Shown here piece after piece: positions 9,014 to 16,990 of a stretch of DNA of 64,000 nt (the first letter of the stretch is position 1; each line of letters starts with the position of its first letter). Source of the DNA: Salegentibacter salinarum (GTDB lineage Bacteria > Bacteroidota > Bacteroidia > Flavobacteriales > Flavobacteriaceae); assembly GCF_900168115.1 (NCBI RefSeq), contig NZ_FUZC01000010.1, positions 1 through 64,000 of the forward strand. Reading direction: 5' to 3'. The position numbers were made by a program, and so were the translations under genes. The notes under the pieces are model-generated. The model saw only the letters and a list, made by a program, of their open reading frames with translations, was not told the DNA's origin and ran no database searches.

Positions 9014-9370
9014 TTATAATTTATTCTGCCGTGCCTGTTCTTTAATCAGCTCTTTTATTTCTGTTGTTGGTACTTCTTGGTCAAACTTAATCTGAATTGT
9101 TTTTTTACCCGTTTTATATCCTTTTTCTTTTAGTATTTCACGCATTTCGGTTGTTAAGGAATCAATACCAAAGCTAACGTGCTTTTTAGCCAATGAAAAT
9201 CCGGCAAGAATACCATAATATTTATAGATAGGGACATTCCAGCTTATTCCCTCTTCTGCATTCGGAACAGTAACTTCTATGAGTTTTTTAAGCCTTAGCA
9301 TAATCCCTTGTGATTCCTGAGGGGCAGCATTAATAAACTCGTCAACAGTTGTTGGGTTAAAATCTTTCAT
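9014..9370 (-). CDS. DUF1801 / YdhG-like protein
   Basis: A 118-aa protein with the DUF1801 fold: TVDEFINAAPQESQGIMLRL, then AEEGISWNVPIYKYYGILAG and HVSFGID, ending in KFDQEVPTTEIKELIKEQAR. Relatives of this YdhG/CyaY-like fold have been proposed as iron chaperones, but many are uncharacterised. Its ATG overlaps the TGA of the upstream DoxX gene (9367-9370), so the two are translationally coupled in the ArsR-led operon. Confidence 0.82.
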   Translation of the reverse strand: MKDFNPTTVDEFINAAPQESQGIMLRLKKLIEVTVPNAEEGISWNVPIYKYYGILAGFSLAKKHVSFGIDSLTTEMREILKEKGYKTGKKTIQIKFDQEVPTTEIKELIKEQARQNKL

Positions 9371-9756
9371 TTTATTTCTGGAATTAATTTTCTATCGGGT
9401 GGTCTAAAATACCAGGATATAATCGTAAGCACCAATAACAGTAGGGGACCAAAAAGGGTGATGATTTCATCTCTAACCATTAAATGGGAAATCGCAGCCC
9501 CCGTCATTACAAAAAAGAATCCGGCATAAGCCCATTCCTTTACTAGTGGTGCTTTAGGGATAAGAATAACGATAGTCCCTAAGATTTTCCATACGCCAAG
9601 TATGTATAGTAAGTAAGGTGGGTAACCTAAGGAATTCATACTTGCTACTTCTTCTTCCATTTTAATTAATTGGACAATACCTGTCGAAAGCATTCCCAAA
9701 GCCAGCCAGATGGTGGCAATCCAGTAAATAATTTTTTTCTGTTTTATTGTGGCCAT
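9367..9756 (-). CDS. DoxX-family membrane protein
   Basis: A 129-aa protein with four hydrophobic helices: IIYWIATIWLALGMLSTGIV, then PPYLLYILGVWKILGTIVIL, EWAYAGFFFVMTGAAISHLM and LFGPLLLLVLTIISWYF. The loops KMEEEV and LIPKAP match the DoxX pattern seen next to ArsR/SRPBCC pairs. It starts 2 bp after the SRPBCC gene and overlaps the DUF1801 gene by 4 bp, so the four genes form one tightly packed operon. Confidence 0.85.
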   Translation of the reverse strand: MATIKQKKIIYWIATIWLALGMLSTGIVQLIKMEEEVASMNSLGYPPYLLYILGVWKILGTIVILIPKAPLVKEWAYAGFFFVMTGAAISHLMVRDEIITLFGPLLLLVLTIISWYFRPPDRKLIPEIK

Positions 9757-9758
9757 AA

Positions 9759-10226
9759 CTATTTATTTGTATTCATAATTGCTTCCAATCGATGGTGTGC
9801 CAGATCAAAACCTATAGTGAAGGGTTTTTTTAGTAGTTCATTTCTTATTTCAGCCGATTTAAAAATGATGTGCATCGTTAAAATACTTTTCTCACCTGTA
9901 ATGGCCTTAAAATTTAAAAACTCCAGTTGCGGGGGAAGTGAAAACACATCCATTTCAAAAGTTCTAACAATCATTTTATTCGGTATTAAGCTGTGAAATG
10001 CACCTTTCCCGCTAAACATTAAATCTCCTGTGGGACTGCGTGTTTCAAAATGATATTTTCCATATTCCTTAAATTCAAAGTCTAATAAATTCGTCCCCAT
10101 CCATTTTGCGAACAACTCTTTATCTTTATATGCTTTATAGAGGGATTCGACAGGCAAATTGAATTCCCTGGTAATTAGTAGCTCCTGCTTTCCTTCTTCG
10201 GCTTTTATTTTTGTTTTTTGTTCCAT
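9759..10226 (-). CDS. AHSA1-type SRPBCC protein paired with ArsR
   Basis: A 155-aa helix-grip protein: LLITREFNLPVESLYKAYKD, KELFAKWMGTNLL, then GKYHFETRSPTGDLMFSGKG and a last helix around GFDLAHHRLEAIMN. An ArsR-type regulator immediately followed by an AHSA1-like protein is a widely conserved gene pair in bacteria. The physiological substrate is unknown. It lies 6 bp downstream of the regulator. Confidence 0.87.
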   Translation of the reverse strand: MEQKTKIKAEEGKQELLITREFNLPVESLYKAYKDKELFAKWMGTNLLDFEFKEYGKYHFETRSPTGDLMFSGKGAFHSLIPNKMIVRTFEMDVFSLPPQLEFLNFKAITGEKSILTMHIIFKSAEIRNELLKKPFTIGFDLAHHRLEAIMNTNK

Positions 10227-10232
10227 GAGTTA

Positions 10233-10556
10233 TTAGGATTCTGATTGATGGTCTTTCATTAAATTTTCCAATTTATCGAAACGATCATCCCACATTTTTC
10301 TGAAAGGCTCGATAAAATTGGCGATTTCTTTCATTCCTTCCGAATTTAAATGATAATAGATTTCCCTGCCATTCTGCTCTTGTTTTAATAGTTCGCATTC
10401 AGTAAGGATTTGAATATGTTTTGAAATAGTCTGTCTCGAATAATCGAAGTTCTCAGCAAGGGCAGTCGGTGTCATTGCCTGAAGCGCTACTAAAGAAATT
10501 ATTGTTCTTCGCGTGGGGTCAGCTATGGCTTGAAATACATCTCTTCTTAGTTTCAT
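10233..10556 (-). CDS. ArsR-family winged-helix repressor
   Basis: I place the start at the internal Met ([17 protein letters not shown]), giving 107 aa, because ArsR proteins of this clade begin there; the frame is open to ATG at 10587-10589. The domain shows the dimer helix, the HTH ([20 protein letters not shown]) and the wing ([12 protein letters not shown]). No CxC metal-binding motif is visible, so this is the SRPBCC-associated metal-independent group. It probably autoregulates the downstream SRPBCC-DoxX-DUF1801 operon. Confidence 0.88.
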
Positions 10557-10717
10557 TTTGCAGTCATTTAACTTCAAATATATATGCAATCATATAACTG
10601 CGCAAATTTTTAAAGAATAAATGTTTTAATACTAGCTTTTTGGGTTATTAAAAATCTACTTGAGAAACTAAAAGGAAATTCATAAATAGAAGTATAGGAG
10701 GGGGCGGTCAGGAAAAA

Positions 10718-12518: not shown

Positions 12519-12579
12519 ATAGGCGAAAAAACTGCTTACAAAATTATACCCAATTTACCACGGGGGTACTTAGCCGACT

Positions 12580-12971
12580 GACTACTTTACAGCAGATATG
12601 AAGCATATCTACAACGCACCTAACCAGCAAGCTGCCAAAGCTGCCCTGGATGATTTTGCAGGGCTATGGGAAGGTAAGTATTCCTATGCCGTGAAGAGCT
12701 GAAGGGACAACTGGGAAGACCTTACGGTATTCTTTGAGTTCCCCCTGGAAATAAGAAAGATCATTTATACCACGAACCTTATTGAGAACCTCAATGGGAA
12801 AATCAGGAAGTACACCAAAAATAAATTGTCTTTCCCGACAGATGAGGCAGTGATGAAATCGGTATATTTGGCTACAAGAGAAGCCACTAAGAAGTGGTCA
12901 ATGCCTCTCAGGAACTGGGCATTATCTTAAATCAGTTCCTTACTATCTATGAAAAAAGGGTCAGACTTTAA
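12580..12971 (+). mobile_element. IS256-family transposase C-terminal remnant
   Basis: The frame reads YFTADMKHIYNAPNQQAAKA, LDDFAGLWEGKYSYAVKS, a TGA, then [39 protein letters not shown] and SMPLRNWA. These are the C-terminal motifs of Mutator/IS256 transposases (TTNxIENxNxxIRK is diagnostic). A deletion near 12925 shifts the last part ([15 protein letters not shown]) to another frame. The N-terminal two thirds and the left end are absent. It is a dead insertion-sequence relic. Confidence 0.82.
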
Positions 12972-13282: not shown

Positions 13283-13306
13283 ACCACCAAACATCTATTT
13301 GGTGGT
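13283..13306. terminator. hairpin overlapping the stop of the fusion gene
   Basis: ACCACCAAA (13283-13291) pairs with TTTGGTGGT (13298-13306). The TAG of the minus-strand gene lies in the loop. The T run following on the minus strand is short, so termination is plausible but not certain. Confidence 0.5.
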
Positions 13307-15043
13307 TTCTAAAATTGGGTAATCTATATAACCTTCTTTACCAAAGGTATACAGTGTGTCTTGATTAGGTTCGTTATAGTCTGCCCCGCGCTCAATGCGT
13401 TCAACTAAATCTGGATTTGCAATAAACGGAAACCCTATAGAAACTAAATTTTTATCATTTTCAAAAACTACTTTTTCAGCACGCTCTAGATCAAAGCCAA
13501 ATCCGCCATTAAAAATAACGTTCCCGCTAAATTCTTTACCTAAATCTTCTAAAAAACCTTCAGGAATATCTTCCGAAAGAGAGACCATATGTAAATATGC
13601 CAAATCTAAAGTGTTTAGTTTTTCTATTAAATAATAGTATGTTTCTGAAATCTCTTTATATAAAGCCATATCATTAAATACGCCATAGGGAGAAATACGA
13701 ATTGCTGTTTTATTATTTCCGATTTCTTTTGCAATTTCTTTAGTTAATTCAATTAAAAATCGAGTTCTGTTTTCTACAGAGCCACCATAATTATCAGTTC
13801 TTTGGTTGGTGCCTTTATTTAAAAATTGATCGGCTAAATAACCATTCGCAGCGTGAATTTCGATACCATCAAAACCAGCTTCAATTGCATTTTTAGCAGC
13901 TTCTACAAATTCTTTTTGAGTTTGTTTAATATCTGTAGTAGTCATTTCTAGAGGTATAGGGAACGGTTTTAGTCCTTCGCTTGTGAGCACTTCACCAGCT
14001 GCTTGTATAGCAGACGGAGCCATAACTTCACCACCTTTTGGTAAATTTAATTGGTGCCCTATACGACCTGTATGCATAATTTGAAGGAATATTTTTCCAT
14101 TGTTATTATGTACAGCTTGAGTTGTTTTTTTCCAACCAGTAATTTGTTCTTTAGAGTATATAGCAGGAATATTAATATAACCTAGCCCGTTTTTTGAAGG
14201 CGAGGTTGCTTCGGTAATTATTAAACCTGCAGTTGCTCGTTGTGAGTAATAGGTTGCCATGATATTGTTTGGAAGATTATTAATAGCCCTGGACCTTGTC
14301 ATAGGTGCCATAACCACATGGTTTTTTAAATTTAAATTTTGTGAATTAAAAGCCGAAAGTAATTTTGAATTTTTCATAGGCGATTTTTTGTTTAAAGATT
14401 TAAGGATAGTTGTAATTTCGGTTGGTTCAGCTCGATTTCTGTATTCTGGGTCTAAAAAGGCGTAAGCTATTGTCCCATCTTCATTTATTATATAGGTTGC
14501 AGCTAATGGAAGCTCATTAAAGTCATCTCCATTGTAATTTTTTAAACCAAACGCACTGTTGTAAGTTTTTGCCACCTCATCTGTTAATTTAAAAACGATA
14601 CCGTATTCTTTTGCAATATTGTTTCTTAAATCACTTAAAACCTCGAATTCTAAATTATGTTTTTCAGAAGTACTTAAAGATTGATCAGGTACCTCTGGCG
14701 TTAAAGCAATTAATGTAGCATTATGGGCTTTAAAATTCGGCAATTCTTTATTCAACTGTCTCAAAGTTAAATTGCAAAAAGGGCACCAACCCCCTCTATA
14801 CCATGTTAAAACGACTTTACCTTTTTTAAGGAAGTCTTGTAACTCAACACTATTTCCTAAAGCATTATTTAAAATAAAGTTAGGTGCCCTATCACCAACC
14901 TTTTTTGCATTTGCTACTATATCACCTTTTCTTACTGAATCCACACCTTCATTAAAAACTCTTATAAGTGAGGCATCAGCTTGCGATTCAAAGTCATTTT
15001 TGACTTCATCTAATTGTCCTTGTAATGTTTGCTTTTTCTTCAT
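13295..15043 (-). CDS. fusion: peroxiredoxin-like protein plus old yellow enzyme (ene-reductase)
   Basis: One 582-aa frame holds two complete proteins. Residues 1-220 are an AhpC/TSA-type peroxiredoxin-like domain with WYRGGWCPFCNLTLR (Cys87, Cys90). Residues 223-582 are a full-length FMN-dependent old yellow enzyme: VVMAPMTRSRA, IITEATSPSKNGLGY, and EIHAANGYLADQF with the substrate-binding His397/Asn400 pair, then RTDNYGGSVENRTRF. The join LNKK-SP-MKNSKLLS reads TCG CCT ATG at 14383-14375, exactly where a first gene should stop and a second start. A TAG-to-TCG stop loss in a former two-gene operon would explain it. It lies downstream of a TetR gene and a palindrome, so electrophile or redox induction is likely. 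Confidence 0.87.
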   Translation of the reverse strand: MKKKQTLQGQLDEVKNDFESQADASLIRVFNEGVDSVRKGDIVANAKKVGDRAPNFILNNALGNSVELQDFLKKGKVVLTWYRGGWCPFCNLTLRQLNKELPNFKAHNATLIALTPEVPDQSLSTSEKHNLEFEVLSDLRNNIAKEYGIVFKLTDEVAKTYNSAFGLKNYNGDDFNELPLAATYIINEDGTIAYAFLDPEYRNRAEPTEITTILKSLNKKSPMKNSKLLSAFNSQNLNLKNHVVMAPMTRSRAINNLPNNIMATYYSQRATAGLIITEATSPSKNGLGYINIPAIYSKEQITGWKKTTQAVHNNNGKIFLQIMHTGRIGHQLNLPKGGEVMAPSAIQAAGEVLTSEGLKPFPIPLEMTTTDIKQTQKEFVEAAKNAIEAGFDGIEIHAANGYLADQFLNKGTNQRTDNYGGSVENRTRFLIELTKEIAKEIGNNKTAIRISPYGVFNDMALYKEISETYYYLIEKLNTLDLAYLHMVSLSEDIPEGFLEDLGKEFSGNVIFNGGFGFDLERAEKVVFENDKNLVSIGFPFIANPDLVERIERGADYNEPNQDTLYTFGKEGYIDYPILETTK

Positions 15044-15077: not shown

Positions 15078-15103
15078 AATAACTAAATAATTATTTAGTT
15101 ATT
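15078..15103. promoter_or_regulatory. perfect 26-bp palindrome, candidate TetR operator of the fusion gene
   Basis: A perfect inverted repeat centred at 15090.5 with core AACTAAATAATTATTTAGTT. It is 35 bp upstream of the fusion gene start and just after the tetR stop. A close relative of the core precedes tetR itself (15697-15720), which marks both as likely binding sites of the same repressor. Confidence 0.7.
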
Positions 15104-15118
15104 GGTTAAAAAAAAATG

Positions 15119-15679
15119 TTATATCGTTTTAAATACCATATTAATAAAGTCTTCGATTTCTTGCTTTGTATTAATTCTAGAGATCGTTGCCAAAGCGTGT
15201 AATGAGAGAACTAAAAAGTTGGCTTCACTTAAAATAGTAGCTTTACTTTTAGTATGGTCAGTTTCTAATTTTTTAATAATGTGTTGTTTAAAATTTTTAC
15301 GGTTTTTGACTTCCTTTAATATAAAATCATCATCACTATTTGGAAATTCATTTATAGTATTTGTTATTAAGCAACCATTTTGTTTTCCATTTGAGTACCA
15401 AACAGAAAAAAGACTTCTAAATAGTTTCTTAATATCTTCAACACCATCCTCACTGTTTTCAAAATTTGAAAATATGTAATTTGTTTTTGCTTTATAAGCT
15501 TTTAAACATTCTTTAAAAACACCCTCTTTATTGCCAAAACTAGAATAAATGGAAAACATATTGATACCCATACCCTTTTCTAATTCTTGAATGGAAGTGT
15601 TGGAATACCCTTTTTGCCAAAACAAATACATTGCTTTATCAATGACTTCTTCTTTATTATATGCTTTTTTTCTAGCCAT
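15119..15679 (-). CDS. TetR/AcrR-family repressor
   Basis: A 186-aa protein with an N-terminal HTH (VIDKAMYLFWQKGYSNTSIQ, then GINMFSIYSSFGNKEGVFKE with the recognition helix) and a helical ligand-binding domain containing a GCLITN segment (QNGCLITNTINEF) typical of the NemR/TetR_C_16-like group. Such regulators often control old yellow enzymes and respond to quinones or electrophiles through a Cys. It is upstream of, and collinear with, the Prx-OYE fusion. The two palindromes suggest both autoregulation and a second promoter for the fusion. Confidence 0.88.
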   Translation of the reverse strand: MARKKAYNKEEVIDKAMYLFWQKGYSNTSIQELEKGMGINMFSIYSSFGNKEGVFKECLKAYKAKTNYIFSNFENSEDGVEDIKKLFRSLFSVWYSNGKQNGCLITNTINEFPNSDDDFILKEVKNRKNFKQHIIKKLETDHTKSKATILSEANFLVLSLHALATISRINTKQEIEDFINMVFKTI

Positions 15680-15696
15680 AATTTTAATAACACTAC

Positions 15697-15720
15697 AAAT
15701 CTAAATAATTATTTTGAAAT
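15697..15720. promoter_or_regulatory. imperfect palindrome upstream of tetR, second candidate operator
   Basis: TCTAAATAATTATTTTGA (centred at 15708.5) matches the core of the perfect palindrome at 15078-15103 with changes only at the outer positions. It lies about 20-40 bp upstream of the tetR start. Confidence 0.55.
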
Positions 15721-15842
15721 AAAATCAAGTTTCACACTATATTAATTTAATTAGTAGTTGGTGGCGAAAATGGACATTAATTAGGTTTAAGACAATATTA
15801 TTTTCTCTAATATGCTCTAGCGTTTTCCTTATTCAAAAATTC

Positions 15843-16085
15843 ACTCTTGACCTAAGGAATTTAAAATTCACTTATGACAACGGTAGTATTCCAACCCTAA
15901 CAATTATTACCGCAGCAATTATTTCCATAATTTTTGTGGCTTGTGATGTTTGGACAAATAGAGAGATTGCTACACAGAGAGAAAACGAAAAATTTTTTGG
16001 TCTTTTACAAGATCCTAATTTGGAAAAAGAAATTAAAGAAGAAATTTTAAAAATTTTAAAAGGGAAGTACCAACACTGCACATAA
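15843..16085 (+). pseudogene. remnant with one membrane helix, no start codon
   Basis: The plus strand is open from upstream of 15843 to TAA at 16083. It encodes TLDLRNLKFTYDNGS, a hydrophobic segment (LTIITAAIISIIFVACDVW) and an acidic tail rich in Glu and Lys (LLQDPNLEKEIKEEIL). Composition is protein-like and it resembles a small membrane-anchored protein. No ATG, GTG or TTG in frame could be found upstream, so it is likely truncated. The family is unknown. Confidence 0.35.
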
Positions 16086-16202
16086 CAGCGGTCATCTTAA
16101 ATAACGGGTAAACCAGAAAAAGTATAATTTTAGAAACCAAGCAATAAATAGGTAATATTTGGGTTCAGGATTTTCAGGGCATAGAATTAAACAACTACTT
16201 TT

Positions 16203-16444
16203 GTGATTATTTCACCAAATGAAATGAATAAATATTTGAGAACTATTGTTGTAGCTCCAATGACTACAAACCTCAAAAAATACCCACTCGGATTTCGATT
16301 AAAACAAATGACAAAAAGGGAATAATAGCAATTGACCAGATTCGGACAATTGATAAGCAAAAGATTGTAAAAGTCTTTGATTCTCTAACCAAATCCGAGA
16401 TTCGAAAATGTAAAGGAGTACTGAGAGAAACATTTGTAGACTAA
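16203..16444 (+). pseudogene. PemK/MazF toxin remnant, frameshifted
   Basis: VIISPNEMNKYLRTIVVAPM is the central part of MazF-type endoribonucleases. After TTNLKKYP the reading jumps frame to PTRISIKTNDKKGIIAIDQI and continues with the normal C-terminus (VFDSLTKSEIRKCKGVLRE). A missing C around 16289 explains the shift. The first 30 or so residues and any antitoxin gene are absent. The toxin is inactive as read. Confidence 0.75.
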
Positions 16445-16546
16445 AATGTACTAATAAAAACACAGACGGTTAATCGCCAATAGACAGCAGCGTTTAAAAG
16501 AACATAAATATAAGTTATAAAGTTAAAGTTATATTAAAGGTGTCAA

Positions 16547-16558
16547 ATTCGGTTACAC
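16547..16558. repeat. right-end copy of the ATTCGGTTACAC arm-like repeat
   Basis: Identical to the two tandem copies at 2535-2558 and in the same orientation, 63 bp inside the right copy of the 12-bp core. Its presence at both ends of the island is the main reason to read it as an integrase arm site. Confidence 0.45.
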
Positions 16559-16621
16559 TAGAATTTTGCTCTCTCTGAAAGGCCAGTAATAGTAGGGGTA
16601 AGCCATTTTTGGATAGTTCCT

Positions 16622-16633
16622 CTTCCTCCGCCA
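16622..16633. repeat. candidate attachment site, right copy of the 12-bp direct repeat
   Basis: CTTCCTCCGCCA, identical to 2427-2438. It is followed by a terminator hairpin. Genes to its right are conserved chromosomal types, those to the left are small or broken accessory genes, so this is the likely island boundary. Confidence 0.5.
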
Positions 16634-16636
16634 CTT

Positions 16637-16677
16637 AAAACCGTAACACACTGATAAAATAGGAGTTGCGGTTTTTT
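16637..16677. terminator. hairpin terminator next to the right repeat
   Basis: AAAACCGTAAC pairs with GTTGCGGTTTT (one mismatch) and is followed by T residues. Confidence 0.65.
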
Positions 16678-16990
16678 ATTTTGTATTTGTCCGTAATTGG
16701 TATCGGAAAAAGGAATCATTCTTAATGGATCAAGCCTAATTGTTGTAGTTAATCTGTATATATGGATTCTTTAATTTCACTTCCCTAAACCCTCTTATTT
16801 TTACACTGGAAGATTCGGTGAAAGCATATATACTTCTGTTGATGAAGTAATTTAGAATAGTCCTATAGTTTAAAACCAAAAAAGCCGAAAATAAATTCGG
16901 CTTTTTCAGTCACTTTAGGACAACCATCTTTCAAAATTTGAAAAATGGCCCCTCTTGCCCATAAAGTGTCCCCAACAACTATGTTCTTAA
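16678..16990. other. gap right of the island, with a terminator
   Basis: About 310 bp without a gene. At 16879-16906 a hairpin AAAAAGCCGAA/TTCGGCTTTTT with T run forms a good bidirectional terminator for the lipoprotein operon to the right. Confidence 0.65.

Follow-up and report, generated by a model that had tools for sequence, protein, structure and literature searches.

On the minus strand of the window (the whole 64,000-nucleotide stretch of DNA analysed here) lies a single open reading frame (ORF) of 582 residues (13295..15043, stop codon included) that runs with zero internal stops through a peroxiredoxin-like (Prx-like) half and an old yellow enzyme (OYE) half. The Prx-like half spans residues 1-221 (14381..15043, minus strand), with its CxxC motif at C87/C90, and the OYE half spans residues 223-582 (13298..14377, minus strand) and retains its own ATG (14377-14375) as well as H397, N400 and Y402. 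The junction between them reads ILKSLNKKSP (14378..14407, minus strand), which is the end of the Prx-like half plus a linker and contains a run of six A residues (14389-14384). The earlier note described both halves as full-length and well conserved, and the Pfam profiles bear this out: AhpC-TSA matches residues 49-194 over profile positions 1-123 of 124 (E 3.7e-28) and Oxidored_FMN (PF00724) matches residues 234-554 over profile positions 8-339 of 342 (E 9.4e-80), with CPFC at 87-90 and HAAN at 397-400. Upstream on the same strand is an intact gene for a TetR-family regulator of 186 residues (15119..15679); a perfect 26-bp palindrome (15078..15103) separates it from the fused gene and a degenerate, partial second copy of the palindrome lies upstream of the TetR gene (15694..15714; direct repeat D6, 86%). 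The source genome is a 4.31 Mb draft in 40 contigs (completeness 99.98, contamination 0.03) that holds two further OYE matches (47 and 46% identical) and two weak Prx-like matches elsewhere.

Beyond the end of the fused gene is a broken remnant of a Mutator-family transposase (12574-12927, plus strand), for which 12703-12927 matches PF00872 at E 1.3e-15 and 12574-12699 at E 0.0046, the latter below the curated cut-off; this remnant may bear on how the cassette arrived. The approximately 1.3 kb upstream of the TetR gene (15680-16990) hold no ORF above 69 residues wholly inside them and are possibly decayed coding sequence. Further away, a compact cluster on the minus strand (9014-10589) encodes an ArsR-like HTH regulator, an AHSA1-family protein, a DoxX-like protein and a DUF1801 protein.

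The OYE half is an old yellow enzyme by its near-full PF00724 profile and its H-x-x-N-x-Y motif, which provides the substrate His/Asn pair and Tyr of OYEs, and FMN-dependent ene-reductase activity is predicted for it; its top match in the PDB is the ene-reductase 6uff (E 7.3e-95). The Prx-like half is a member of the AhpC/TSA superfamily by its domain and conserved cysteines (C87 is invariant and C90 is present in at least 90% of an alignment of 27 sequences). The canonical peroxiredoxin active-site motif, PxxxTxxC, is absent from it, with T80 and G84 occupying positions -7 and -3 relative to C87, and the active site is instead a thioredoxin-like WCPFC. The half is thus better named a thioredoxin-like peroxiredoxin-like protein, and its top PDB match is ResA (E 4.8e-10), followed by BCP-type peroxiredoxins. 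By eye, the N termini of four of its homologues (L049, L051, L088 and L112) resemble signal peptides with a lipobox-type cysteine, and given such N termini some members of this family may be exported. In a predicted structure, computed from the window protein together with nine OYE rows, the OYE half is mostly good and the Prx-like half poor (pLDDT mostly ~30-50), so nothing was inferred from it about the packing of the two domains.

The regulator carries a TetR_N domain (Pfam, E 5.6e-10) and a cysteine, C103, within a GC(L/F/M) motif that is found in all 14 aligned TetR homologues, two of which (L112 and L113) are near-identical. Its nearest solved relative is CifR (E 7.5e-12), with GCL aligned, and the alignment is limited to residues 3-107, so the relation is one of similarity and not of orthology. 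Of the 16 genomes with a TetR relative in the loci compared, 14 have a core of the palindrome, CTAA-N8-TTAG, no more than 90 nt beyond the TetR stop (G942 and G962 lack it, and G942 and G1084 are near-identical in the region compared), as against 12 of 7500 shuffled stretches in which base composition alone was preserved. The same core also stands 32-44 nt before the TetR start in 10 of the 16 genomes, a position at which the window has its degenerate copy only. The TetR gene of G258 and G186 comes after the Prx-like gene, hence the palindrome after TetR does not lie between the two. Within the source genome the 20-bp core of the palindrome has one exact occurrence, and the three sites with three mismatches equal the number of control hits (three). 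Transcribed into RNA, the palindrome could fold into a hairpin, for which the z-score is modest (-1.94). Taken together, the sequence comparisons make the 26-bp palindrome a likely, if putative, TetR operator, and its placement after and before TetR genes could possibly be the signature of a regulon. A palindrome close to AACTAACCGATTGTTTAGTT is seen in many relatives (L031, L033, L048, L055, L075, L078, L113 and others).

The two enzyme genes are found apart in close relatives. In four genomes from two other genera of the same family (G346, G411, G249 and G419), genes for TetR, the Prx-like protein and the OYE follow one another as separate genes in the same order and on the same strand, with tblastn identities of 79, 80, 78 and 75% for the Prx-like protein and 71, 71, 69 and 70% for the OYE, respectively. 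The Prx stop codon is TAA in G346, G411 and G249, and the spacer from that stop to the ATG of the OYE is 4 nt in G346 and 11 nt in G411, G249 and G419 (taken from ORF coordinates in G419). A fifth genome, G226, which is the only one of seven in its genus with a match at E <= 1e-60, has the order TetR - OYE - Prx, also unfused. G346 holds in addition a second, distant Prx - OYE pair (34 and 42%; L077). The genus search that yielded G411 found matches at E <= 1e-60 in two of eight genomes (G346 and G411), both with the Prx-like gene, and that which yielded G419 found matches in seven of nine, with the Prx-like gene adjoining the OYE gene in G249 and G419. For the OYEs of G314 and G038 (65 and 64% identical), no Prx match lies within their loci, which reach 1.5 kb. 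Across the draw from the window's family, 13 of 397 genomes (own included) match at E <= 1e-110. In the window's own genus, 14 of 15 genomes (own included) match at E <= 1e-20 and the Prx half is matched only in the window's own, so the junction has no second sample. Separate adjacent genes with a stop between them are what the earlier note had said would speak for recent stop loss, and the four operons do make loss of the separation the likelier history.

How the separation was lost is less specific than first thought. In reading order the join is TCG (14383-14381), CCT (14380-14378) and ATG (14377-14375), just as the earlier note had read it, and its arithmetic, that one A-to-C change turns TAG into TCG, is correct; the TAG-to-TCG route itself we reject as a demonstrated history, given that the three relatives whose stop was read have TAA and out-of-frame spacers and that many alternative single steps exist. 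In the alignment the Prx stop of G346 and G249 falls at K220 of the window, which continues for three residues to the OYE methionine. The Prx and OYE genes of the relatives are out of frame with one another and those of the window are in frame, so the length must have changed, whether together with loss of the stop by substitution or in place of it. Over the 14 codons that precede the OYE ATG, any of seven single substitutions would create a stop. Deletion of one base anywhere in 14393-14378 (the run of six A residues included) would end the Prx-like gene at a TGA overlapping the OYE start (ATGA), and if the base were lost in 14419-14394 the gene would stop 17 nt short of the OYE ATG, similar to the relatives. 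Such proximity to a stop is ordinary: a single substitution could turn 207 of the 582 codons into a stop, and at least one such codon occurs in 505 of 578 five-codon windows, so the argument from a single change has little weight. With so many one-step routes at the junction, both slippage in the organism and a sequencing error are plausible.

Sequencing or assembly error would mean that the organism has two real genes and that a junction base was miscalled or miscounted, for example in the A run. The substitutions and the deletion that would restore two genes are compatible with such an error, as is the unfused state of all five three-gene relatives; short overlaps, those of 4 nt included, are moreover common among bacterial gene pairs (PMC10666635). 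Set against this are a nearly complete and clean assembly, a frame open for 582 codons and an intact adjoining TetR gene, none of which probes the base itself. We regard an error as rather unlikely and, as a matter of judgement and not of computation, hold the fusion to be very probably real in the organism.

A join that exists in the DNA might still have little consequence if translation mostly yields a separate OYE from the ATG at 14377, which would make the fusion a neutral by-product. The OYE half keeps its start codon and begins with MKNSKLL, in agreement with the unfused relatives, and the stretch that precedes this ATG is A-rich, which suits initiation in bacteria of this kind. By our reasoning, however, the missing stop would also abolish any coupling of termination to reinitiation, and we find it improbable that separate translation predominates.

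The condition of the two halves bears on whether the locus is decaying. In the Prx tree the window falls in a six-row clade with five operon relatives (support 99/98, end branch 0.21) and in the OYE tree in an eight-row clade (support 100/99, end branch 0.18), in trees whose inner branches are open in 12 of 24 (Prx) and 6 of 19 (OYE) cases and in which distant rows carry a long-branch warning. The window is placed outside all seven remaining rows of its OYE clade (95/89), so a date cannot be put on the fusion. Conservation was scored in a close set of 19 of the 27 Prx rows and 14 of the 22 OYE rows, at columns where 90% or more of the set agree. Departures from the conserved residue number 3 in 86 such columns (Prx-like half) and 2 in 119 (OYE half) for the window, and 4 in 87 and 3 in 118 for the unfused G226. 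For the four nearest relatives they number 0, 0, 0 and 1 (Prx-like) and 0, 0, 0 and 3 (OYE), counts that are lowered by the resemblance of these four to one another. A recent damaging mutation, after which the fused protein would misfold or lose an activity and the locus would decay, could be read into the flanks, which contain stretches without long ORFs, including the broken Mutator-type transposase. The conserved residues are nevertheless retained in both halves with few changes at conserved columns, and the TetR gene and palindrome are intact, all of which makes damage a very improbable account. The suggestion in the earlier note that the gene is damaged thus receives no support from the protein sequence of either half; these sequences give no sign that would favour decay, and they say nothing about selection for the fusion itself.

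To place the fusion among its relatives, we ran the Prx half against four draws of genomes that overlap one another (E <= 1e-30 in the family; E <= 1e-40 in the order, class and phylum), with matches in 63 of 397, 23 of 395, 17 of 395 and 14 of 365 genomes, respectively. These amount to 96 distinct genomes with a relative of the Prx half, or 98 when G411 and G419 are added, the window's own included. A Prx-OYE fusion occurs in one of the 98, the window's own, and in none of the other 97. The fused homologues by which the earlier note would have recognised a real two-domain enzyme are therefore missing from this set, and an established two-domain Prx-OYE family is rejected, a second case being absent from the genomes searched. 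Proximity without fusion is also uncommon: among 68 Prx-anchored loci from the family, order and class draws (L045-L074 and L088-L125; L156-L159 lie outside this set) checked for OYE within 1.5 kb flanks at E <= 1e-5, four have a match, namely the window's own, G346, G249 and G226. The Prx-OYE neighbourhood is a minority arrangement, and most relatives of the Prx-like protein are not beside an OYE.

The Prx-like protein has another partner elsewhere. Among the Prx matches listed, open frames above 300 residues (stop to stop) are those of the window (589), G308 (496) and G962 (503). In the latter two, a domain of ~270 residues with a lipoprotein-like start is joined to the N terminus of the Prx-like protein (L048:1495-2985 and L111:1492-3003, both minus strand), with a TetR of the same type adjoining; the added domain of G308 has no Pfam match. 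The two genomes belong to different families (kinship table f1 and f35) and their added domains are 57% identical to each other, so the join is not confined to a single genome. G089 encodes a relative of the lipoprotein-like domain (63%) as a gene of its own, which one further gene separates from the Prx-like gene. These joins resemble the window in the Prx family (67 and 64-65% identical), the TetR type and the retention of a second start methionine, and differ in that the partner is at the N terminus of the Prx-like protein and is not an OYE. By sequence, G308 and G962 suggest that the Prx-like protein tolerates a joined partner.

The pairing does recur at a distance: in nine of 2468 matching plasmid records, a single place accounts for 80% or more of the query as two pieces, and 110 records match the Prx half at all. 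Annotation was examined for four of the nine best records (a fifth carries none). Plasmids of Rhizobium, Bradyrhizobium and Paraburkholderia have adjacent genes annotated as peroxiredoxin-like and alkene reductase, in either order, and on a Kozakia plasmid the Prx match falls in an unannotated stretch after an alkene reductase; glutathione S-transferase genes adjoin the Prx/OYE genes on the Rhizobium and Kozakia plasmids. For an Aureibacter plasmid copy of the Prx-like gene (50% identity), no OYE is annotated within the 6.7 kb shown. Among phage records 41 match and none covers 80% of the query, and among viral contigs no relative aligns with the whole protein or the Prx half and 17 loci align with the OYE half. 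Seven of the OYE ORFs (L133-L139; 351-367 residues) lie on IMG/VR contigs classed as viral and may be prophage cargo or misclassified host DNA. A scan of genome contigs with the whole protein returned one locus, with an OYE at 46%. Among the titles and abstract openings listed for open-licence PMC papers, none concerned a Prx-OYE operon or fusion, which is weak evidence of absence.

Two characterised operons offer points of comparison. NemR is a TetR-family repressor, and NemA and MorB are OYEs; nemRA-gloA is not known to include a Prx-like gene or a fusion. The window operon would resemble nemRA-gloA of E. coli in being induced by electrophiles: nemRA is induced by methylglyoxal and glyoxalase I by readthrough (PMC3739934). 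The cif operon of P. aeruginosa is alike in that CifR, the nearest solved relative of the window's TetR, is a TetR-like repressor released from DNA by epoxides and that the inducible operon includes morB, and unlike in that cifR is divergent and that the operon holds genes for an epoxide hydrolase and an MFS transporter, a Prx-like gene being unnamed in the portion of the account consulted (PMC8244358). Closest of all are the operons of G346, G411, G249 and G419, which share the gene order, regulator type and palindrome position of the window and differ in that a stop codon and a spacer of 4 or 11 nt keep the two enzyme genes apart.

The reading that we favour, and consider probable, is that a TetR-controlled stress operon is present here in which the Prx-like protein and the OYE have become one functional polypeptide of 582 residues in this lineage. 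The two enzyme genes would have merged into one frame through a small local change where they meet, be it an indel, the loss of a stop or both. Our best inference for its control, drawn from sequence and from analogy with the known operons, is a cysteine-triggered electrophile response through TetR and the palindrome: an electrophile or oxidant would modify the TetR cysteine and so free the palindrome. The protein would be made fused and working, perhaps alongside some OYE started at its own ATG. Reduction of peroxides or disulfides would fall to the Prx half and that of activated alkenes, such as products of lipid peroxidation, to the OYE half. It is a bolder and doubtful step to a bifunctional enzyme in which, on oxidised lipids or electrophiles, the CxxC Prx-like half reduces the hydroperoxide and the ene-reductase then the enone, with the Prx-like gene having joined partners at least twice.

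The fusion is an ordinary kind of event, in which neighbouring, co-regulated genes of a functionally suggestive operon were joined in a single lineage, and the result seems a modest variant of a stress-defence operon, not a new type of system. The physiological role of old yellow enzymes is not fully resolved (PMC5891007). If the fusion is real, it would be 'Rosetta stone' evidence that OYEs can have a functional partner in this little-characterised family of peroxiredoxin-like proteins. Independently of the fusion, the recurrent TetR neighbour, the palindrome and the cysteine together constitute a concrete, testable regulatory unit.
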